Shown here: piece after piece, positions 3,680 through 13,708 of the stretch
Layout of the letters: each line of letters starts with the position of its first letter
How positions within the stretch are numbered: the first letter of the stretch is position 1
Assembly: GCA_900319855.1 (NCBI GenBank)
Contig: ONQC01000004.1
Location: 124,001 to 188,000, forward strand
Length of the DNA stretch: 64,000 nucleotides
Direction of reading: 5' to 3'
Origin: an uncultured Bacteroidales bacterium
GTDB taxonomy: Bacteria > Bacteroidota > Bacteroidia > Bacteroidales > UBA932
Made by a program: the position numbers and the translations under genes
Notes under the pieces: model-generated
What the model was told of the DNA's origin: nothing
The model's input: the letters and a program-made list of their open reading frames with translations, nothing else
The model's database searches: none

Positions 3680-4522
3680 TTATCCGATTTGAATGTCGCA
3701 GTCGGCCGGAGCCTTGATGTTCTTGTCCAGGATCAGTTCCCCGCAGCTATCCACTTTGATGAAGCCGGTCCTGGGGTTCTTGATCGAAGGGATATGGCCT
3801 TTGACCGTGGCCTTGACATCGCTGTATTCGAAGGCGAGGTCGGCATCGTCGCCAAAGGTGCAGTCCTCCAGGACGAGGCCTTCCGCATAGCAGAGCGGCT
3901 GGCTGCCGGTGATGTGGCAGCGGACCAGGTGCAGGTTGCGGGAATGCCAGCCCAGGAACTCACCGTTGATCACGGAGTCGTAGACGGTCACGTTGTCCGT
4001 TTCCCAGAAGGCATCCTTGGTGTTGAGGATGGAATCGTGGATTTCCACGTTCTGCGTCCATTGGAAGGAATAGTTCCCGTTCAGTTTGAAGTTGCGGATG
4101 ACGATGTCGTGGCATTTCATGAAAATGTAGTCGGCCCGGTCGGCCCGGACGTTGTCCATCTCGATGTGGCCGCAGTGCCAGAAGGTCTCGGCCGCACCGT
4201 CGATGATGACGTTCCGAAGTTTCATCTGCTCCATCTCGCGGAACATCTTCGGGGCGTCGACGATGGTGTCTTCCATCAGCAGGTCACGGGAATACCACAG
4301 GGCGGCCCGGGCGCCGACCGTGAAGATGCAGTCCCGGACGATGAAGTGGTCGCAGCACCAGAAGGGGTATTTCCCTTCAAAGCGGCAGCGGGTGGCCGTG
4401 ATGTTCGCGGTTTCCTTGAGGGCGGATTCGCCTGCATGGATCACGACGTTCTCCAAGTTTAAGTCTTTTTCGCAATACAGCGGTCTTTCTCCGCCGAATT
4501 CCTGGTTTTTGATCTCTTTCAT
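3680..4522 (-). CDS. DUF3737 family right-handed beta-helix protein
   Basis: The protein has about 280 residues built of repeated short strands with regular aromatic, Asn and Cys positions (for example WYSRDLLMEDTIVDAPKMF). This is the pattern of the DUF3737 parallel beta-helix family, whose function is unknown. I chose the ATG at 4522 (MKEIKNQEFGGERPLY), the usual family opening. It lies one base after the stop of the MATE gene; an upstream ATG at 4537 would overlap that gene. There is no signal peptide, so it is probably cytoplasmic. The pairing with a MATE exporter and a C-S lyase suggests co-regulation but does not reveal its job. Confidence 0.88.
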   Translation of the reverse strand: MKEIKNQEFGGERPLYCEKDLNLENVVIHAGESALKETANITATRCRFEGKYPFWCCDHFIVRDCIFTVGARAALWYSRDLLMEDTIVDAPKMFREMEQMKLRNVIIDGAAETFWHCGHIEMDNVRADRADYIFMKCHDIVIRNFKLNGNYSFQWTQNVEIHDSILNTKDAFWETDNVTVYDSVINGEFLGWHSRNLHLVRCHITGSQPLCYAEGLVLEDCTFGDDADLAFEYSDVKATVKGHIPSIKNPRTGFIKVDSCGELILDKNIKAPADCDIQIG

Positions 4523-4523
4523 A

Positions 4524-5951
4524 TTATGTTTCAGCAATTCTGTGTTTCAGCCATTGTTTGCCGCTGACCCGCCAGATGAAGAGCAGGCCGCGGACGTTGA
4601 GTTCGATGCACATGGCGATCCAATAGCCGGTCAGTCCGTAGACCGGGGTCAGGAAGATGGCCGGAATGATCCGGACCAGCCACATGCTCCCGAGGTTGAG
4701 TCCGCTCGGGACGAGGGTGTCGCCGGCACCGACGCAGGCGCCGTAGGCGACGATGGAAGCGGCGTAGCCGAGCTCGGCGAAAGCTTCGATCCGAAGGACT
4801 TTGGCGCCGAGGGCGACGACATCCGGGTCTACGCTGAGCACGCCCATGAGCTGCGGCGCGATGAGCCACATGACGACGGCGAGCACGCCCATCATGCCGA
4901 TGCCGAGGGCCATGGTGATCCGCGTGAAGCTGCGGACCAGCTCCCTCCGTCCGGCTCCGAGACTTTGTCCGACCAGGGTGGTGGCGGCGTCGCCCATGCC
5001 GTATCCCGGCATATAGACGAAACCTTCCGCCGTGATGGCGAAGGAGTTCGCCGCAATGGCGACGGGTCCCAGCGGGGCCACGATGACGGTGCTGGCGATA
5101 TGGGCTCCGCGCATGATCATATTCTGGACCCACATCGGCCCGGTGATGCCGAAGGCGTTTTTCAGGCAGACGCGGGTGGGACGGTAGGATACGCCTCTTT
5201 CATGGATGACGGCCAGCTCCTTGGAGCGGACGAGCAGGAACCAGAGCATCAGGCCGGCGGTGATGAGTTCCGCCAGTCCGGTGCCGAGGGCCGCTCCTTT
5301 TACGCCCATGCCGGCCCCCGGAACGGTGATGCCGGCGATTTCCCGGGTCGGGAAGATCAGCAGGAAATTGAAGATGACGTCCAGCACGCACATCAGCACG
5401 TTCAGCAGGCTGGGAAGTTTCATGTTTCCGCTGCATTGGAGCATGCTGCTGCCGAAAAAGCCGAGCTGCATCGCGGGCAGGAACAGGATATAGGTCCGGA
5501 AATACGCGGAGGCTTCCCGGGTGATATCCGGACTGCCGCCGAGCCAGCGGGGAAGGGCGTCCGCGATGGACAGGCCGGCCAGGACGAGCAGGAGACTAAA
5601 CAGGGTCACGCTGGTCAGGCCCTGGCGCAAAACTTTCCGGGCGCCCATAAAATCATTGGAACCGATCAGGTGCGCGACCTGGACGGAAAAACCCTGCGAA
5701 GCCGCCATGGCGAAGCCGCCGAAGATCCAGGTGGTCGTGGAGACCAGACCGATGGAGGCGGCGGGACCGGCGCCGAGGCTGCCGACCATGGATGCATCGA
5801 TGAATTGGAGAAGGATGGAGGCGAGCTGGGCGAGGATGGCCGGTCCGCAGAGCAGGAGCGTCAAGCGGACTTGCTGCCCCAGGGAAAGGGGAAGTTTGCC
5901 GCGGATGCGGCCCAGCAGGAAGTCCTTATTCTCCGTATTGCCCATAAACAT
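4524..5951 (-). CDS. MATE family multidrug/Na+ efflux transporter
   Basis: This 475-residue polytopic protein has about 12 hydrophobic segments in two similar halves. It shows typical MATE features: a short polar N-terminus, GPAILAQLASILLQFIDASMVGSLG in the first helix pair, and Gly/Pro-rich helices with Gln and Asn. It should export cationic compounds using an ion gradient; the substrate is unknown. It is the first gene of the leftward operon MATE, DUF3737, PatB-like, EF-hand. Two starts are possible, ATG at 5951 and ATG at 5945. A -7 promoter box at 5953-5960 lies so close that only 5945 would sit inside the transcript. Confidence 0.92.
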   Translation of the reverse strand: MFMGNTENKDFLLGRIRGKLPLSLGQQVRLTLLLCGPAILAQLASILLQFIDASMVGSLGAGPAASIGLVSTTTWIFGGFAMAASQGFSVQVAHLIGSNDFMGARKVLRQGLTSVTLFSLLLVLAGLSIADALPRWLGGSPDITREASAYFRTYILFLPAMQLGFFGSSMLQCSGNMKLPSLLNVLMCVLDVIFNFLLIFPTREIAGITVPGAGMGVKGAALGTGLAELITAGLMLWFLLVRSKELAVIHERGVSYRPTRVCLKNAFGITGPMWVQNMIMRGAHIASTVIVAPLGPVAIAANSFAITAEGFVYMPGYGMGDAATTLVGQSLGAGRRELVRSFTRITMALGIGMMGVLAVVMWLIAPQLMGVLSVDPDVVALGAKVLRIEAFAELGYAASIVAYGACVGAGDTLVPSGLNLGSMWLVRIIPAIFLTPVYGLTGYWIAMCIELNVRGLLFIWRVSGKQWLKHRIAET

Positions 5952-6248: not shown

Positions 6249-6602
6249 TCAATACGCTATTTTTTTAGAGAACGTAATTTGAGAATAATCTACTCCTAAT
6301 ACCATAAGTATGAGATGCAAAAGAAATCCAAGCATCACGATGACGAAGCAAAAAGCCACTATGGTGGTAACGGTTTTGCGCCTGATGTGGCGGATGTCTT
6401 CGTTTTCAACTATCTCTTCGGAAAATGGTGCGATGAGGGCCGACCCCATGACGGACAGTACAAGAATTAGCGTAATCACTTGATTGGCTGGATCGGGAAT
6501 TGATACGCCAGCCATCGTCACTGCGGTATAAATGATAGAAATCAGGTAATTTGTCACAAATACACCGATAGAAGTTTTGTTTATCCTGTGTGAGAAAAGC
6601 AT
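6249..6602 (-). CDS. Small membrane protein, unknown
   Basis: The 117-residue protein has three hydrophobic segments (around residues 14-33, 40-60 and 80-104) separated by short loops, one with the acidic run SEEIVENEDIRH. It has no signal-peptide cleavage site, so it is probably an inner-membrane protein. It lies 36 bp after the lipoprotein gene on the same strand and may be co-transcribed from the promoter near 7300. The base composition is clearly AT-richer than the surroundings, which suggests acquired DNA. I do not recognise the family. Confidence 0.6.
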   Translation of the reverse strand: MLFSHRINKTSIGVFVTNYLISIIYTAVTMAGVSIPDPANQVITLILVLSVMGSALIAPFSEEIVENEDIRHIRRKTVTTIVAFCFVIVMLGFLLHLILMVLGVDYSQITFSKKIAY

Positions 6603-6638
6603 TGTCTGATGTCAATTAGAAATACAATTGAGTTGCTA

Positions 6639-7178
6639 TTATCGAGTACAGTCGATGGCTGCTACAATCAGGGCTATTGTCTCACACGGAACCCACTCAC
6701 AAGTTGCACGGCCGATAGGCCCTTCGTTCATAGTTTCTGATATCTCATTTGCTTCACGCACAACGCAGTCTTTCCATTTTTCCCCTTCCTTCTTTGCTTT
6801 TGTAGTTGGTCCTTCCGTATAAATGTTATATTGTAAACCCGGGGAGACGATAAAATCCAAGACAATCTCTTTGTAGAGTGTTGAAGTAGAGATCAAGGTC
6901 CCGTCAGGGAAGTAAGTCTCAAAAAAGGAAAAGCCATTCTCATCTTTCTTTTCGACGCCATATAAAGTAATGGACGTGGATTGATATTCACCGGTAATCG
7001 TGAATGACTCGTTTTCATTGAATGATTTGGTATCAAAGGTGCTCCCTTTTAAGATTGTGAAATGTACTTCTCCTCTGTCGAATTCTTTTTTCTCGAGACT
7101 AAAGGAGGATTCAAGAGATTCTCGATTGCATGAAACCGATGCAAGAGAAATGAGCATAAGCCAGAAAAACCTCTTCAT
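6639..7178 (-). CDS. Lipoprotein of unknown function
   Basis: The 179-residue protein starts with a lipoprotein signal (MKRFFWLMLISLASVSC, lipid Cys17). The mature part is mostly beta-strand-like, with SITLYGVEKKDENGF and a Thr-Lys-Ala-Lys-Lys segment, and ends with a Cys-containing tail (VPCETIALIVAAIDC). It is probably anchored in the outer membrane. The gene is AT-rich compared with its neighbours and forms a pair with the small membrane protein downstream. I do not recognise the family. Confidence 0.7.
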   Translation of the reverse strand: MKRFFWLMLISLASVSCNRESLESSFSLEKKEFDRGEVHFTILKGSTFDTKSFNENESFTITGEYQSTSITLYGVEKKDENGFSFFETYFPDGTLISTSTLYKEIVLDFIVSPGLQYNIYTEGPTTKAKKEGEKWKDCVVREANEISETMNEGPIGRATCEWVPCETIALIVAAIDCTR

Positions 7179-7823: not shown

Positions 7824-7839
7824 TTTGTTAAAAAGATTG

Positions 7840-8237
7840 TGGAGATGGGCGGACTCGAACCGCCGTCCAAACGCCGCACCAGGCAGCTTTCTACATGCTT
7901 ATCCGTTCCTTTGGTTTTCGACCGCAGGCTGCCGGAAGGCGGGCCATCTGCGGCTTATCCCCTGAATCTTAGCGGGACATAGGGGCGTCCTTCCCGCGCA
8001 TCCGGTTTGATTGATACCCCTGGATCGGAACATAACCGGCCTAAAGTCCGAGGGATACTCGTCGGCGACGCAGCCTAGGCGTCGCGGATTAAGCTAATTG
8101 ACTTGGTCAGATTAGGCAGCGAGTGCGTAGTTGTTGTTGGCAACTGAATTTGGCGGGAGACGGTTTTTACGGGCCATTTCCCGGAGCCCGGCATGCTTAC
8201 TGTCCGACATCAGCGCTGTCAAAACCAAAACATCCCC
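7840..8237 (-). ncRNA. ssrA: tmRNA (transfer-messenger RNA)
   Basis: tmRNA rescues ribosomes stalled on broken mRNA and tags the product for proteolysis. The 5' end reads GGGGATG followed by TTTTGGTTTTGACAGC, and the 3' end carries a T-arm (GGTTCGAGTCC) and CATCTCC, which pairs with the 5' end over 7 bp including one G-U. The discriminator is A; CCA is not encoded. The length of about 398 bases is normal. The internal frame ends ...YALAA-stop. The ends are set from the acceptor stem and could be off by a base or two. Confidence 0.95.
8112..8141 (-). other. tmRNA proteolysis tag frame, ANNNYALAA
   Basis: The frame begins with GCC after a CAGTT context, the typical resume position, and encodes ANNNYALAA and a TAA stop. 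With the charged alanine the tag would be (A)ANNNYALAA. The C-terminal ALAA is the normal ClpXP-type degron. Confidence 0.85.
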
Positions 8238-8274: not shown

Positions 8275-8304
8275 CAAATGTACGGAGTTTTTTGCGATTC
8301 GCAA
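8275..8304 (-). promoter_or_regulatory. ssrA promoter
   Basis: On the minus strand TTG (8302-8304), 19 bases and TACATTTG (8275-8282) match the Bacteroidetes consensus. Transcription would start near 8272, about 35 bases before the mature tmRNA 5' end. Confidence 0.7.
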
Positions 8305-8322
8305 GCAAAAAACCTACCTTTG
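8291..8322 (+). promoter_or_regulatory. Promoter of the GH53 gene
   Basis: TTTG (8291-8294), 20 bases and TACCTTTG (8315-8322) form a full consensus promoter on the + strand, 24 bases before the ATG at 8347. Its -33 element lies inside the spacer of the divergent ssrA promoter. Confidence 0.7.
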
Positions 8323-8346: not shown

Positions 8347-9492
8347 ATGAAAACCTTCCATAGATTCCCGGCGCTTCTCGCCACCCTGGCCCTCGTTTTT
8401 TCCGCTTGTGGCGGATCCTCCACGCCTGATCCGACGCCCGATCCGGCACCGGACCCCACACCGGACCCGACGCCGGCGGCGACCCTGACCTCCAAGGTGA
8501 CGGACCATACGACCGAGGTGCTGCAGGCGCTGAAGTCCGCGGATGTCGACGTCAAGTGGGTACAGGTCGGTAACGAGACCCGCGATGGCATGCTTTGGGA
8601 TGCCGGAAGAATCATGTGGGAGAACAAAAAAAGGACTCCTGCTAGCGTGAAGAATTTCGTCCAGCTCAGCAATGCCGGGTATGACGCCGTCAAGAAAGTC
8701 TATCCATCTGCCAAGGTCATTGTCCATCTGAACAATGCCTATGATTCTGGCAATGTTGGTTGGTTTGAGGATTTTAAGAAGTACGGTGGTAAATTCGATA
8801 TTATCGGCCTGTCGCATTATCCGATGTATCAGAGCAACTGGCAAACATGTAATACAAATGCAATCAATCAGGTCAAGGCGTTGATCAATAAGTTTGGTTG
8901 TGATGTCGTTATTTCCGAGGTCGGCGTGAAGCATGTTGAGGAAAGTGACGTTACGCAGGGCAAAGAGTGCCTTGAGGCCTTCATGACTGCTGCTCGGGGC
9001 ATTGAGCGCTGCGCCGGCGTCTTCTATTGGGAACCGGAAGCGGACGGCATCTGGAAACCGGCCATCTACAACAAGATTCCCAGTGCCTGGGGCGGCGGAA
9101 CCTGGAACGCCTACGACATGGGCGCCTTTGACGGCGACCTGAAACCAACGGCCATCCTGGATCCGTTCAAGACCGCCCGCGACGGCTGGGCCCGTGGGGC
9201 CGATGTCAGCTGGTGCACCGAGATGGAAAATGACGGAGGTCAGTTCAAGGATGCCTCCGGCAATGTGAAGGACCTCTTCCAGATCCTGAAGGACTGCGGC
9301 ATGACCGCGGTCCGGCTGCGTGTCTGGGTGGATCCCCAGGGCGGCTGGTGCGGAAAGGATGATGTCGTGGCCAAGGCCAAACGCGCGAAGGATGCCGGGC
9401 TGGATGTCATGATCGACTTCCATTACAGCGATTTCTTCGCCGATCCTGCCCGTCAGGTCATACCGGACGCCTGGAAGGACCTGGCGCTTTAG
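8347..9492 (+). CDS. GH53 endo-beta-1,4-galactanase-like lipoprotein with swapped (circularly permuted) halves
   Basis: GH53 enzymes cut beta-1,4-galactan side chains of pectin. The protein has a lipoprotein signal (lipid Cys21) and a Pro-Asp repeat linker (about 27-44). Residues 46-278 then match the C-terminal half of a GH53 barrel: WVQVGNE (acid/base Glu77), GLSHYP, VVISEVG (nucleophile Glu191) and GVFYWEP. Residues 279-379 match the N-terminal half: WARGADVSW, AVRLRVW, MIDFHYSD and PDAWKDL. The order is therefore strands 4-8 and then 1-3. The two open ends would join smoothly in a normal GH53. Both catalytic Glu are present, so activity is possible. The gene stops 3 bp before a convergent gene. 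It could also be a remnant of a tandem duplication, or an assembly artefact. Confidence 0.88.
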   Translation: MKTFHRFPALLATLALVFSACGGSSTPDPTPDPAPDPTPDPTPAATLTSKVTDHTTEVLQALKSADVDVKWVQVGNETRDGMLWDAGRIMWENKKRTPASVKNFVQLSNAGYDAVKKVYPSAKVIVHLNNAYDSGNVGWFEDFKKYGGKFDIIGLSHYPMYQSNWQTCNTNAINQVKALINKFGCDVVISEVGVKHVEESDVTQGKECLEAFMTAARGIERCAGVFYWEPEADGIWKPAIYNKIPSAWGGGTWNAYDMGAFDGDLKPTAILDPFKTARDGWARGADVSWCTEMENDGGQFKDASGNVKDLFQILKDCGMTAVRLRVWVDPQGGWCGKDDVVAKAKRAKDAGLDVMIDFHYSDFFADPARQVIPDAWKDLAL

Positions 9493-9495
9493 CCG

Positions 9496-10266
9496 TCAGA
9501 ATTCCTTCTCTACGATCGTTCCCGGTTCCCAGCCGGCCAGGGCGATCCGGACACGCTGTCGGGCGTAATCGATGTCCAGGGTGATGTCCTTCAGGTCTTC
9601 TTCTTCCCAGTCATATCCGATTTCCCGCATCCAGTCCCCGATGGGCAGGACATCGGCCCGTTGTGTCCGGTCATAGATGGCCAGGGCGATATCCGCTCCC
9701 GGGTTGTGCCGCAGCAGGTTGAATCCCATGTGCCCGTCCGGGGCCTCCCGGACCGGGAAGATATGTTCTCCGGAAAGGGGGGAAAGGTCCCGCAGGTCGA
9801 TGCCGCAGCATTCGCTTTCCACGTATAGCTGGTAGGGGTAGGGAACGTCCTTTTCCCGTACCAGCCTGAGCGTGACATGGCAATACTGCTTGTGTGGCGT
9901 GGCCGTGATCCGGCAGACCTCATCCTGGCAATCCAACGTCGTCGTGAAGACGTGCAGGCTGTCGGGCTCGGCCCGGGGCGGGACGGAAAACTGGCTGCCT
10001 GAAAGCCGGCCGGACCGCTGGCCGGACCAGGTGGAAACTGTAAAGATTCCTTTTGTGATCTCCCGTACATAGGTTCCGGACGCAGGTACGGTCTCTTGCC
10101 AGCGGTCCGGTCCGTCCCATACGCCGACAGATACCTGGCGGGCGAGGAGAGAGAAAGGGTCCAGGCCGATTTCAAGCCGGCAGGGGCACCCGGCCCGCTC
10201 TTCCCGGATGGAGCAGGATGCCGTCAGCAGGACGGCCATCAGCAGGATTGAAGAAGTTGCTTTCAT
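9496..10266 (-). CDS. FimB/Mfa2 family fimbrial anchor lipoprotein
   Basis: This 256-residue protein has a lipobox (LLTASC, Cys18) and then CPCRLEIGLDPF, the characteristic opening of FimB/Mfa2 proteins. These sit in the outer membrane, anchor the fimbrial shaft and limit its length. The rest is beta-rich with paired Cys (ESECCGIDLRDLSP), as in the family's two transthyretin-like domains. It is the last gene of the leftward fimbrial operon, 67 bp after the fimbrillin, with a hairpin in between. The assignment rests on gene context plus motifs. Confidence 0.82.
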   Translation of the reverse strand: MKATSSILLMAVLLTASCSIREERAGCPCRLEIGLDPFSLLARQVSVGVWDGPDRWQETVPASGTYVREITKGIFTVSTWSGQRSGRLSGSQFSVPPRAEPDSLHVFTTTLDCQDEVCRITATPHKQYCHVTLRLVREKDVPYPYQLYVESECCGIDLRDLSPLSGEHIFPVREAPDGHMGFNLLRHNPGADIALAIYDRTQRADVLPIGDWMREIGYDWEEEDLKDITLDIDYARQRVRIALAGWEPGTIVEKEF

Positions 10267-10285
10267 GGGATCGGGTTTTTAAAGA

Positions 10286-10311
10286 CTCCGGGTGCATCCC
10301 TGCAGCCGGAG
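10286..10311 (-). terminator. Hairpin between fimbrillin and anchor genes (possible attenuator)
   Basis: CTCCGG (10286-10291) pairs with CCGGAG (10306-10311), with an inner TGCA/TGCA stem around TCCC. On the minus strand it is followed by TCTTTAAAAA. It could reduce read-through from the major subunit into the anchor gene. Confidence 0.45.
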
Positions 10312-10333
10312 CCGGCTAAAATAATGAAAGATA

Positions 10334-11389
10334 TCAGATGGTTTCGTTGATGACGGCCCCTTCGCCCCAGGATTTGACAATGACGGTGGCGCTGGCATCA
10401 CCCCGCTGGGGGATGACGTCCGGATCGTCGGAGCCGAGCCCGGTGATGGTCAGCTGGATTTCGTATGCCTTGTTGCGGGCCAGGCCGGGAATCGTGACCG
10501 GATAGTAGTATGTCCGCCCGGAGATGGTGGCCGCCACGACCAGCCGGGTGGGCTCTTCGAGGAACGCTCCGTACGCGTCGGTCTTGTCCTGCGTCGCCGG
10601 ATTGTCGAAACCATAGAAATACATCGGTTCTCCGGTCAGGTCGACCGTCGTCCTGTTGTTGACCTGCTTGTTCCACGCATGGAAGGTCACGGCCTCCGCC
10701 TGGGCCTTGGCGGATCCATTCCCGTTGATGATTGCCCCGCTTTCGGTCCGGCCTTTCTTGTTGTACCATACGCCCTGACCCTTTCCGCCATCCAGCCGCT
10801 GGTCTGCGACGACATTGGTGAGCATGACGTATGGGAAGGTTACGCTCCCATAGGAAACGGGCAGTTGTACATCGACTTTCGTGAGCCGGACACGGGCGAC
10901 GAAACGTTCTGCGGTGATGTTGCAGGCGGCGGTCCCGGACGCGGTCACCTTGCAGGTGTTGCTACCGGCCATGGTGAAGGTGCCGCCGGAAGGGGTCGCC
11001 TGGTTGTCCTGCAGCGAGATGATGGCTTCTTTCAGGTCTGACACGCGGACGATCCCACTTAGGGCCGGTCCGTTCAGGACGGCCCAGATTTCTTTATCGC
11101 CCGTCGTGACGGAGAGCGGGATGGCCTCCGAGATCTTGTCCGTCTGGTGATGCAGGTTCAGCAGGCCGCTGCTTTCGAACACATAGATGTCGACTTTTTC
11201 AATGCGGGTTTCATGGGACAGGGCGGTGATGTCCGGAGACGTTGCCTTGGTGGTAATTCCATCGGGGATGACGGAAAGAAGAATGGTTCCGGTCCCTTCG
11301 GATGCCGTATGGAATCCGAGGGTTTCCCGCGTGCAGGAAACGGAGAGGAGTGCGAAGCATGTCGCAAATAACAAATGTTTGATTTTCAT
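10334..11389 (-). CDS. Mfa1/FimA-like major fimbrial subunit (fimbrillin)
   Basis: This 351-residue lipoprotein precursor (lipid Cys19 in LLSVSC) is built of beta-strands. Bacteroidales fimbrillins are exported as lipoproteins, cleaved after Arg or Lys, and polymerised by strand exchange. Features that fit are the early ITTKAT segment, IEKVDIYVFESSGLLN, which is typical of the first fimbrillin domain, and the last strand (GDASATVIVKSWGEGAVINETI). It lies 12 bp after the OmpA-like gene and before the FimB/Mfa2-like gene. Fimbrillins vary greatly, so the exact subtype is uncertain. Confidence 0.8.
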   Translation of the reverse strand: MKIKHLLFATCFALLSVSCTRETLGFHTASEGTGTILLSVIPDGITTKATSPDITALSHETRIEKVDIYVFESSGLLNLHHQTDKISEAIPLSVTTGDKEIWAVLNGPALSGIVRVSDLKEAIISLQDNQATPSGGTFTMAGSNTCKVTASGTAACNITAERFVARVRLTKVDVQLPVSYGSVTFPYVMLTNVVADQRLDGGKGQGVWYNKKGRTESGAIINGNGSAKAQAEAVTFHAWNKQVNNRTTVDLTGEPMYFYGFDNPATQDKTDAYGAFLEEPTRLVVAATISGRTYYYPVTIPGLARNKAYEIQLTITGLGSDDPDVIPQRGDASATVIVKSWGEGAVINETI

Positions 11390-11401
11390 AATATAGAAGG
11401 T

Positions 11402-13351
11402 TTAGAATGAAAGGTTTTCTTCGGGTCCTTGCGGACGGATATCATATCGTCTGGCCAGTTCGGAAATCTCCGGATCAAGATTGCCGCGATGGATATAGGA
11501 CGGATCGAGCCTGCAGGCCTGGAGGTAAGCCTGGACGGCAGCCCGGTCGTCCCCGGAACGGGCATGCAGGATGGCCTGCATGTAGAGGACGGCCGGCGTC
11601 GGATCCAGTTTGTCCAGGATTTCCGCAGCGGACGCGTTGTAATCCATGCAGAGGTAGGCCACGGCGGTGTTATAATCCCCGTATGGGCGGAGCAGGGTGA
11701 CGGCCCGTTCGTAGTCGCGGTCCCGGATGGCCTGGAGACCGTTCCTGTATACGGTGTCCGGAACGGTCGTCATCACGGTGTCTTTGAGCATGCCGCGCCG
11801 ATGGAGTTGGAAACTGAACCGGACGGTCCGCAGCCGCGGGTAGAGTTTTTCCCGTAAATGACGGTAATACGGCTCTTGCTGCAGGGCGGCTTCCCGCCGG
11901 TCCGGGTCGCGGATCTGCCGGAGGGATGCGTATCCGGCCTTGTCTTGCGGGCGGAGCAGGCTGTCACGCTCCACAAGCCGGTCCAGGCTTTCCCAATCTT
12001 CCGGCCGGTACCGGGATATGAAACGTATCTCCTGGACCGGCGTCAGCACGTTCTCCAGGTCCATGACAAGGCCCCTTTCCTGGCGGATGGAATCCTGAAG
12101 GCCCCGGAGAATGTGGCTGAAATAGGACGAAACGGAACCGGACCGTTCCCGTGCCAACCGTTCATTGGTCCTGTATTCTCCTTCCGGGGAACAGGAAGCC
12201 GTAACGACGATCGAGTCAATATCGAAGGTATCGCTCCGGACCAGTTCCTGCAGGTTCGCCCGGATCCGGGCGATTTCAGCCCTGTTCTCTCCCAACGGCG
12301 GTTTGACGGCTGCACTGCCGGCTTCGAAATCGATGTAGCAGGCCGTATGGGCTTCCGCGCGTCGTTCCACAATGTGGGAGACATACCGTTCCATGGGTTG
12401 GACGAGCGTGCTTAAGGAACTGATATAAAAAGTGATGGGCTCACTTTCCGGAATCCGGTAGATCCGCTTTTCCTGTTCGTAAATGCTGCCTTGCAGGGAA
12501 ATGTCCGCTTTCCGGAGGGCCGGCCTGACCTGTATCGGCTGGGTATAGCAGTAGATGAATTCCTGACTGTCTCCGGTCATCACTGAGTCCAGCCGGAGGC
12601 CTTCGGTCACGATCGGAACCTTGACATACCGGTCGAACATGTACCCCTTCCGCGCGATTTTCCGATTGTTACGCCAGATCTTGAACTGCAGGGTATAATG
12701 CCGGACGGCTTCCTGCTGCGTCACCCCGTAGGCGGAGGCGAATTCCTCTTCACTGACCAGGGTCGTATCGTTGCGGAAACGGTAGAGCCCGGGCAGGTTC
12801 CGACGGACGAACAGTTCCAATTGGCGCCGGCTCAGGAACAGGGTGGAGTCTTGGATGATGGAATCCAGGAAACGCTGGTAGTGCTGGTAGCCGCGGAGCT
12901 GCGCTTTCCGGTAGGCGGATCCCGTGATGAAAACGGGATCGAGGGGAATCCGCTCGCCCGTCAGGTCCATCTGCGGATAAAAACGAAGCTGCCATTGGCT
13001 GTCCTGCATCTCTTTCGGTACGCGGATCTCAAACCGCAGGTCCACCTTTCCGGCCCGTTCGGCTACGTTCCGGAAGCGGGCGGTGACCCGGGCGGCGGGC
13101 AGGACATCCGTTGCGACCATCTCTCCGTCAATGTCGCGCACGGCGCGCATGATCAGAACCTGCCGGCCGGTTTCGTCCTGTACGGTCAGGGTATCCCGGA
13201 CCAGTTCATGCAGGTCCGGTGCCGGCAAGGCCGGCCCGTCGTCCGGGGCGATGCTGACGGAATGGCCGGGCAAACGTCCAATTTTCCGCTGCATCCCACA
13301 GCTCCCGCCTATCAGCGCCAGCAGACAACCGGCGATCAGCAGCTTTTTCAT
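11402..13351 (-). CDS. Fimbrial-locus lipoprotein with OmpA-like and TPR-like C-terminal regions
   Basis: This protein of about 650 residues has a lipoprotein signal (LIGGSC). After a large beta-rich N-terminal region it carries an OmpA-like segment (near 350-420: IDFEAGSAAVKP, then SIVVTASCSPEGE and NERLARERSGSVSSYF). It ends in helical TPR-like repeats (QAIRDRDYERAVTLLRPYGDYNTAVAYLC and after). This is the layout of DUF3868/OmpA-type proteins found in Bacteroidales fimbrial clusters, which probably tie fimbria assembly to the cell wall. ATG at 13351 is preferred over the in-frame TTG that directly follows the ssb stop. It lies between ssb and fimbrillin in one operon. Confidence 0.78.
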   Translation of the reverse strand: MKKLLIAGCLLALIGGSCGMQRKIGRLPGHSVSIAPDDGPALPAPDLHELVRDTLTVQDETGRQVLIMRAVRDIDGEMVATDVLPAARVTARFRNVAERAGKVDLRFEIRVPKEMQDSQWQLRFYPQMDLTGERIPLDPVFITGSAYRKAQLRGYQHYQRFLDSIIQDSTLFLSRRQLELFVRRNLPGLYRFRNDTTLVSEEEFASAYGVTQQEAVRHYTLQFKIWRNNRKIARKGYMFDRYVKVPIVTEGLRLDSVMTGDSQEFIYCYTQPIQVRPALRKADISLQGSIYEQEKRIYRIPESEPITFYISSLSTLVQPMERYVSHIVERRAEAHTACYIDFEAGSAAVKPPLGENRAEIARIRANLQELVRSDTFDIDSIVVTASCSPEGEYRTNERLARERSGSVSSYFSHILRGLQDSIRQERGLVMDLENVLTPVQEIRFISRYRPEDWESLDRLVERDSLLRPQDKAGYASLRQIRDPDRREAALQQEPYYRHLREKLYPRLRTVRFSFQLHRRGMLKDTVMTTVPDTVYRNGLQAIRDRDYERAVTLLRPYGDYNTAVAYLCMDYNASAAEILDKLDPTPAVLYMQAILHARSGDDRAAVQAYLQACRLDPSYIHRGNLDPEISELARRYDIRPQGPEENLSF

Positions 13352-13360
13352 GGTCGTCAA

Positions 13361-13708
13361 TTACATAGAGGGAGACAGGTTGATATCCGGATCCAGCAGG
13401 ACAACGCGCTGGGCGCGCACTTCCGGCTCGACCCGTTCAATGCCGGCGGATGTGGTATAGGATTTCATCCGGATACGGCCGAAAACCTGGACGGGGGAGC
13501 CTTTCTGGATCCGGCTCAGGTCCGGCATGCCTTTCCCTTCCCAGGCGGCCACATCAAACCAGGTCGTATCCATGATGGCGCTTCCGTCCCTGCCTTTGTA
13601 AGCGGCAGTGGTGGCAACGGTGAAGTTGACGACCAGGTTGCCGGAGACCATGTTGGAGCGGACGCTTCCGACCAGGCCGACGATTTCGATTTTGTTGATT
13701 TGTTCCAT
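13361..13708 (-). CDS. ssb: Short single-stranded DNA-binding protein
   Basis: The 115-residue OB-fold protein has SSB landmarks: the opening NKIEIVGLVGSVRS, NFTVATTAAYKGRDG, TTWFDVAAW, and KGSPVQVFGRIRMKSY. It binds single-stranded DNA, normally as a tetramer. It lacks the Gly/Pro-rich linker and acidic DDDIPF-like tip that housekeeping SSB uses to recruit partners, so it is probably an accessory SSB. It is oddly placed at the head of the fimbrial operon, 9 bp before the OmpA-like lipoprotein. Confidence 0.88.
   Translation of the reverse strand: MEQINKIEIVGLVGSVRSNMVSGNLVVNFTVATTAAYKGRDGSAIMDTTWFDVAAWEGKGMPDLSRIQKGSPVQVFGRIRMKSYTTSAGIERVEPEVRAQRVVLLDPDINLSPSM

Follow-up and report, generated by a model that had tools for sequence, protein, structure and literature searches.

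The GH70 glucansucrases differ from the GH13 enzymes in the order of the elements of the catalytic barrel, which runs α3-β4...α8-β1-α1-β2-α2-β3, and it has been proposed that this arrangement arose through a duplication after which the outer halves were lost (PMC4919382). The circular permutation is widespread in GH70, which is assigned to clan GH-H (PMC11299179). Two other reordered carbohydrate-active enzymes, both from families other than GH53, are MalS (GH13_19), the domains of which have been described as circularly permutated, and TOS1, which is a naturally reordered carbohydrate enzyme according to the title of a reference (PMC4176579). The GH53 galactanases belong to clan GH-A and carry the acid/base residue on strand β4 and the nucleophile on strand β7 (PMC8447715). 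In the five sequences that were aligned from the 10 solved GH53 entries listed, the N-terminal part of the domain precedes the C-terminal part. A circularly permuted GH53 enzyme was not found in open-licence PMC papers, in agreement with the initial annotation of the locus studied here, which knew of no such description.

We examined a candidate for such a protein, encoded in a window of 64,000 nucleotides from an uncultured Bacteroidales bacterium (Table 1). The open reading frame was recovered with exactly the limits given in the initial annotation, which had assigned a lipoprotein signal and a Pro-Asp linker to it. The protein scored 250.5 bits against the GH53 profile of Pfam (PF07745; cut-off 24), a match far beyond chance, and did so in two stretches that stand in the reverse of the normal order. 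In a profile search at the level of the genome, profile positions 110 to 327 were matched at C21:132482-133123, followed by profile positions 2 to 112 at C21:133193-133501, which together amount to a complete domain of the 340-position profile. The strand order was accordingly β4 to β8 and then β1 to β3, as had been read from the motifs alone, and the ordinary order from β1 to β8 was not found. The same order was borne out by the match to the galactanase structure 6gp5, in which residues 20 to 145 of the chain corresponded to residues 259 to 380 of the protein and residues 153 to 327 corresponded to residues 51 to 235. The whole domain, both catalytic glutamates and the family motifs are shared with the galactanases BtGal (6gp5), BlGal (1r8l/1ur0), the fungal enzyme 1hjs and IaGal (7osk), whereas the permuted chain starts at α3 and ends after β3.

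Table 1. Coordinates of the permuted GH53 gene, its parts and its neighbors, numbered from the first nucleotide of the window
Feature	Position	Strand	Basis or remark
Permuted GH53 lipoprotein-like gene	8347..9492	+	381 aa plus TAG stop; orthologue in RUG14901 (L072, L035)
Putative Bacteroidetes-type promoter TTTG-N20-TACCTTTG	8291..8322	+	Fits the Bacteroidetes consensus; similar element in RUG14901
Lipoprotein-type signal peptide ending at Cys21	8347..8409	+	By eye; RUG14901 start alike (VLTAC)
Pro-Asp linker, aa 22-46, now ahead of helix α3	8410..8484	+	Sequence
Former C-terminal GH53 part, aa 47-275, α3-β4 to α8	8485..9171	+	PF07745 positions 110-327
Codon of Glu77, predicted acid/base on β4	8575..8577	+	VQVGNE; conserved column; role from PMC8447715
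Codon of Glu191, predicted nucleophile on β7	8917..8919	+	ISEVG; conserved column; role from PMC8447715
New joint TARDG, aa 276-280, old C-terminus to old N-terminus	9172..9186	+	Compared with the ends of ordinary homologues
Former N-terminal GH53 part, aa 281-381, β1 to β3 plus loop, ending ...PDAWKDLAL	9187..9489	+	PF07745 positions 2-112
tmRNA gene ssrA, tag ANNNYALAA, divergent neighbor	7839..8237	-	About 110 bases upstream of the permuted gene
MATE transporter	4524..5951	-	Pfam MatE; adjoins ordinary GH53 in some genomes of the genus
DUF3737 protein	3680..4537	-	Pfam; same neighborhood

A Pfam scan of the protein at E values up to 1 returned GH53, a sub-threshold match to GH10 and a weak match to DUF1647, and no match to GH13 or GH70. 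In NCBIfam, no GH53 model was recovered for this protein or for the second permuted protein described below, and the window protein gave three weak and unrelated matches, all of which were below their cut-offs. A second GH53 gene, with the ordinary order, was identified in the same genome at C16:10021-11019; judged by eye, it is located near genes resembling those for a sugar kinase, a sugar transporter and a GH32-type enzyme (L184:3995-11115, contig C16).

To place the opening and the joint, ordinary proteins were split at the residue aligned, or gaplessly extrapolated, to the permuted C-terminus, and the fragments were aligned to the permuted protein (alignment A3). All 35 C-part fragments started at permuted positions 43 to 45 and 34 of them ended at positions 275 to 276, within residues 43 to 276, the exception being L080, which strayed at its end. 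The N-part fragments, six out of six, aligned to residues 279 to 381. A first large alignment of fragments (A2), in which the C fragments apparently lay on top of the N fragments with low identities, was discarded; A3 was sound. The ordinary homologue L038 reads AWKGLSL-ADMCSKVSEHTTDVL without interruption across the site that is opened in the permuted protein, which ends in AWKDLAL and in which the domain starts with ATLTSKVTDHTTEVL. The suggestion that the PDAWKDLAL tail and the head of the protein adjoin each other in a normal GH53 enzyme was thereby confirmed. Between zero and two residues are missing at the opened site, the number varying with the end assigned to the linker, and some ordinary homologues have two extra residues there. 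The old termini are joined as ...LDPFK-TARDG-WARGADVSW..., that is, by about five residues.

Because of this alignment and the location of the acid/base residue on β4 (PMC8447715), the break is placed in the β3/α3 loop, after β3 and the conserved loop DPxRQxxPxxW and just before α3, with the limits of the helix estimated from the alignment. The initial annotation had put the opening between strands 3 and 4 of one whole barrel; the whole domain and the interval both stand, and the position is now narrowed to the loop ahead of the helix. The predicted order of elements in the permuted protein is α3-β4...β8-α8-β1-α1-β2-α2-β3, again with the helices assigned by alignment. This would be the same order as in GH70, which likewise starts at α3 and ends after β3. 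The GH70 enzymes differ, however, in belonging to another clan, in acting on another substrate and in having extra domains. Since the two families belong to different clans, we interpret the likeness as convergent topology and not as kinship.

A second permuted protein was identified on contig 128 of genome G279, where residues 11 to 381 were matched in one piece with a sequence identity of 67%. We took G279 to be the metagenome-assembled genome RUG14901, which is 79% complete and derived from an uncultured Bacteroidia bacterium (contig CADCRA010000128.1). The protein had the same C-N order and the same new C-terminus, reading AWKNLPL versus AWKDLAL in the window, so that the search for this order in a single frame, which had been proposed as a check on the initial annotation, gave a positive answer. 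The RUG in the isolate name presumably denotes the rumen. The neighboring genes were alike on both sides in the two genomes, with genes for an SSB-like protein, a protein of 652 or 650 amino acids and 2 fimbria-like lipoproteins on one side of the permuted gene, and ssrA (L071:7164-7561 in RUG14901), MATE and DUF3737 on the other. The putative TTTG-N20 promoter element upstream of the window gene fits the Bacteroidetes pattern; TTTG-N20-TACATTTG was located at the matching place in RUG14901.

Some differences between the two loci were also noted. Two small genes for proteins of 117 and 179 amino acids, located between MATE and ssrA in the window (6249-7178, minus strand), had no Pfam match over the cut-off and were not found in the RUG14901 region. 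The GC content was 0.42 at about 8700 to 8940 of the window, inside the permuted gene, against about 0.6 over most of its remaining length. The RUG14901 orthologue had a GC content of about 0.56 where the window copy dips. A segment of the C-part may thus have been exchanged later in the window copy.

The search for further permuted genes covered overlapping sets of genomes from the genus, the family and the order. In 300 genomes of the genus, including the own genome, searched at E ≤ 1e-20, the single match in G279 among the matches listed was the permuted gene. Among 399 genomes of the genus searched at E ≤ 1e-75, G279 contained the only permuted gene besides the query itself, and no further one was found in 398 genomes of the family at E ≤ 1e-60, these being cut-offs at which distant permuted genes would be missed. 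Nor was any found in 393 genomes of the order at E ≤ 1e-32. At least 590 contig stretches matched, 494 of which encoded relatives, and the best 80 were kept; these loci comprised 1 permuted gene, 78 GH53 genes with the ordinary order and 1 gene cut by a contig end (L086). The open reading frames matching at E ≤ 1e-8 numbered 158 and were divided into 146 with the ordinary order, 7 rows with the permuted order, which represent the two permuted genes in several overlapping loci, 3 tandem fusions and 2 incomplete rows, which represent one gene (L060/L086). From these, 130 distinct sequences with the ordinary order were drawn and used for the full trees and the conservation counts. Among the genomes searched, the permuted gene was found in only 2.

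Two other candidates were rejected. A match spanning the full length of the protein in G224, with 35% identity, was considered as a third permuted protein, but the sequence consisted of ordinary domains in tandem, and the same match pattern was seen in G015 and G036. The PDB entry 9fli gave a single continuous match to residues 225 to 379; when the joint region alone was used as the query, only 6gp5 and 6gpa were matched at E values up to 10, and the extension of the 9fli match into the C-part is therefore unsupported.

For the pair of permuted genes, the dN and dS values were 0.27 and 1.51 over 359 codons (NG86; dS near saturation), and the proportions of differences at the first, second and third codon positions of these codons were 0.26, 0.20 and 0.51. 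The values were 0.27 and 1.72 for the C-part and 0.19 and 0.86 for the N-part, and dN ranged from 0.06 to 0.46 for six neighboring genes compared between the window and RUG14901. The permuted order is held in two genomes under purifying selection. In the 130 ordinary homologues, 48 columns were conserved in at least 95% of the sequences; of these, 47 were kept in the window protein, which lacks one near-invariant glycine, and 46 in the RUG14901 protein, which departs at two near-invariant positions. All 48 were kept in both L038 and L046, the ordinary GH53 genes of G060 and G016. The retention of both catalytic glutamates, also claimed initially, was upheld, in that Glu77 and Glu191 fall in columns with 100% glutamate among the 130 homologues and are present in both permuted proteins.

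At one position of a putative substrate subsite, the permuted protein departs from BlGal. Phe364 of the window protein is found at the place of Trp115 in BlGal, which we infer to correspond to Trp115 of IaGal, a residue of the -2 subsite (PMC8447715). The phenylalanine could lower substrate binding. It is also found in the ordinary relatives L037, L038 and L046 and is therefore not a result of the permutation. Positions 9496 to 13708 of the window (minus strand) contain the fimbria-like lipoprotein cluster together with the genes for the 652-amino-acid protein and the SSB-like protein, with 49% to 69% identity to RUG14901. In this cluster, FimA was just over the cut-off in Pfam and FimD/Mfa1 was below the cut-off in NCBIfam. 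A synteny search with the fimbria-like neighbor in relatives was not used, as the listed matches beyond its own gene were weak, with at most 34% identity. None of the nine neighboring proteins scanned by Pfam was recognized as a galactan-degradation protein.

The substitution at the Trp115 place and the location beside fimbria-like genes would both fit a protein that folds without being catalytic, or that has been repurposed, for example as a galactan-binding lipoprotein kept for binding. Against this, the two proteins retain both catalytic glutamates and almost every near-invariant position of GH53, which makes a loss of catalysis rather unlikely. From its sequence, the permuted GH53 protein is probably active.

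To study the origin of the two halves, trees were inferred from all 132 rows, from 45 rows (UFBoot) and, for AU tests, from 22 of the 132 rows. The permuted pair was monophyletic in both half-trees of 132 rows, with supports of 0.95 and 0.99. For the C-half, L038 and L046 were the sisters of the permuted pair with a UFBoot value of 98 in the tree of 45 rows, followed by L043 (G002), and groupings that included L037/L076 were rejected (AU p below 0.001, 22 rows). For the N-half (102 columns, 22 rows), neither L038/L046 (AU p 0.25) nor L037/L076 (AU p 0.40) was rejected as sisters. The 45-row tree of the N-half did not place L038 and L046 as sisters, and FastTree grouped the permuted pair, L038, L046, L037 and L076 together with a support of 0.76. 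The 102 columns are too few to fix the sister of the N-half. It was also noted that L037 (G025) and L076, rejected as sisters of the permuted clade for the C-half, were not rejected for the N-half; this discord between the halves may reflect recombination within the ordinary GH53 genes.

The permuted gene could also have been formed from two GH53 lineages that contributed to one barrel, with a C-part resembling the genes of G016 and G060 and an N-part from another GH53 branch. The failure of the AU test to reject L037/L076 and the 45-row tree of the N-half are in line with this explanation. However, the placement of the N-half with L038 and L046 was likewise not rejected by the AU test, the FastTree grouping includes both sets of relatives, and a single parent is the simpler account of both halves. 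We consider a mixed parentage to be improbable. A decaying chimeric remnant, as had been raised initially, is also unlikely, given the purifying selection and the fact that one set of ordinary relatives can accommodate both halves.

The neighborhood of the permuted gene recurs around some ordinary GH53 genes. The gene order was GH53-MATE-DUF3737-ssrA in G073 (L251), GH53-MATE-DUF3737 in G002 (L254) and GH53-MATE in G003 (L255), and by their coordinates the GH53 genes were located directly beside MATE in G070, G086 and G092. In G016, about 9 kb separates the GH53 gene from MATE, and 2.3 kb separates it from ssrA. In G060, the distances were about 9 kb to MATE and 0.8 kb to a partial, sub-threshold match to ssrA at the end of the contig, for which ARAGORN gave no tmRNA call; the tRNA-Val gene and the gene following it were the same as in G016. 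Altogether, of the 77 other genomes in which MATE was matched, at least 9 had a GH53 gene no more than about 12 kb away from it (G002, G003, G016, G060, G067, G070, G073, G086 and G092). Neither GH53 nor ssrA was found in 5 of the 11 MATE regions that were fetched (G117, G081, G071, G098 and G074), which include the two regions in which MATE was about 81% identical. Across 30 ssrA loci, each taken with flanks of up to 1.5 kb, a GH53 gene was seen only at the locus of the window. The side on which ssrA is located also differs, being downstream of GH53 in G016 and upstream in the window.

The ancestor of the permuted gene was probably a GH53 gene resident at the MATE/ssrA locus, with local reordering. 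An origin in place is suggested because the ordinary homologues nearest in the combined tree group firmly with the permuted pair in the C-half, and because some ordinary GH53 genes have the MATE/ssrA neighborhood as well. A plausible route is a duplication after which the outer halves were lost. Single frames that encode a tandem pair of GH53 domains were observed in the genus in L070 (G224), L005 (G036), L007 (G015) and G065:C38:71515-73239; the proteins of G015, G036 and G224 were compared, and that of G065 was taken from the match table. Within the N1-C1-N2 segment, such a chain holds the C-N joint that a permuted protein needs, although both domains are kept. As the three compared proteins were only 31% to 32% identical to the permuted protein, they demonstrate feasibility and not ancestry.

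That the permuted order is false, the assembly having collapsed a tandem pair of ordinary GH53 genes into a single one, which had been named as an alternative at the outset, is scarcely credible, for although both genomes are draft assemblies (60 and about 160 contigs) and tandem fusions occur in the genus, the order, end points and neighbors are the same in a second genome at 67% identity, and a collapse of N-C-N-C would be expected to yield the ordinary order rather than C-N. With misassembly and a decayed remnant both weakened, the data support a whole GH53 domain in circularly permuted form. The gene very probably encodes a real, selected and naturally permuted GH53 endo-β-1,4-galactanase.

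We propose that the GH53 gene at the MATE/ssrA locus was duplicated in place and that the outer halves were then lost to give the permuted gene. The window protein would fold as a normal eight-stranded barrel, in which TARDG would serve as an ordinary turn from α8 to β1. In a (β/α)8 barrel, α8 and β1 lie side by side at the bottom. The barrel should close, because TARDG is as long as an ordinary α-β turn and because α8 and β1 already adjoin. On the lipid-anchored protein, Glu77 and Glu191 would hydrolyse β-1,4-galactan, as expected from membership in the family.

The permutation may also have moved the anchor. The signal and the linker precede β1 in the ordinary lipoprotein-type relatives L037, L038 and L046, and Pro-Thr-type linkers precede this strand in some ordinary homologues (e.g. 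L037, L075 and L076). The tether of the ordinary relatives would be attached at the bottom of the barrel, at β1, whereas that of the permuted protein would be attached at the top of α3, on the catalytic face. The new start is placed at the top because each helix begins on the catalytic side of the barrel and ends at the bottom. Judged by barrel topology, the catalytic face of the permuted protein would be turned sideways or towards the membrane. Taken as a whole, the scenario of a clan GH-A permutation that arose in place, was opened and joined as in GH70 and brought the anchor to the active-site rim, perhaps under selection for the orientation of the face, is tentative and stands as a possibility with the odds against it.

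By its sequence, the protein is best described as a permuted variant of GH53 and not as an ordinary member, with its homology and active-site residues remaining. GH70 offers a well-described natural permutation of a glycosidase barrel that is widespread in its family, whereas the permuted GH53 is rare. By analogy with the same cut in GH70, the β3/α3 loop may be a favored site for opening a barrel. Where annotation looks for GH53 as a single continuous match, the permuted gene could be logged as two fragments or as a pseudogene. As one genus contains the rare permuted gene, its candidate close ordinary relatives (L038 and L046) and a locus that plausibly was ancestral, the path from the ordinary to the permuted form is testable, and the ordinary and permuted proteins together constitute a natural experiment on the position of the membrane anchor in an anchored enzyme.
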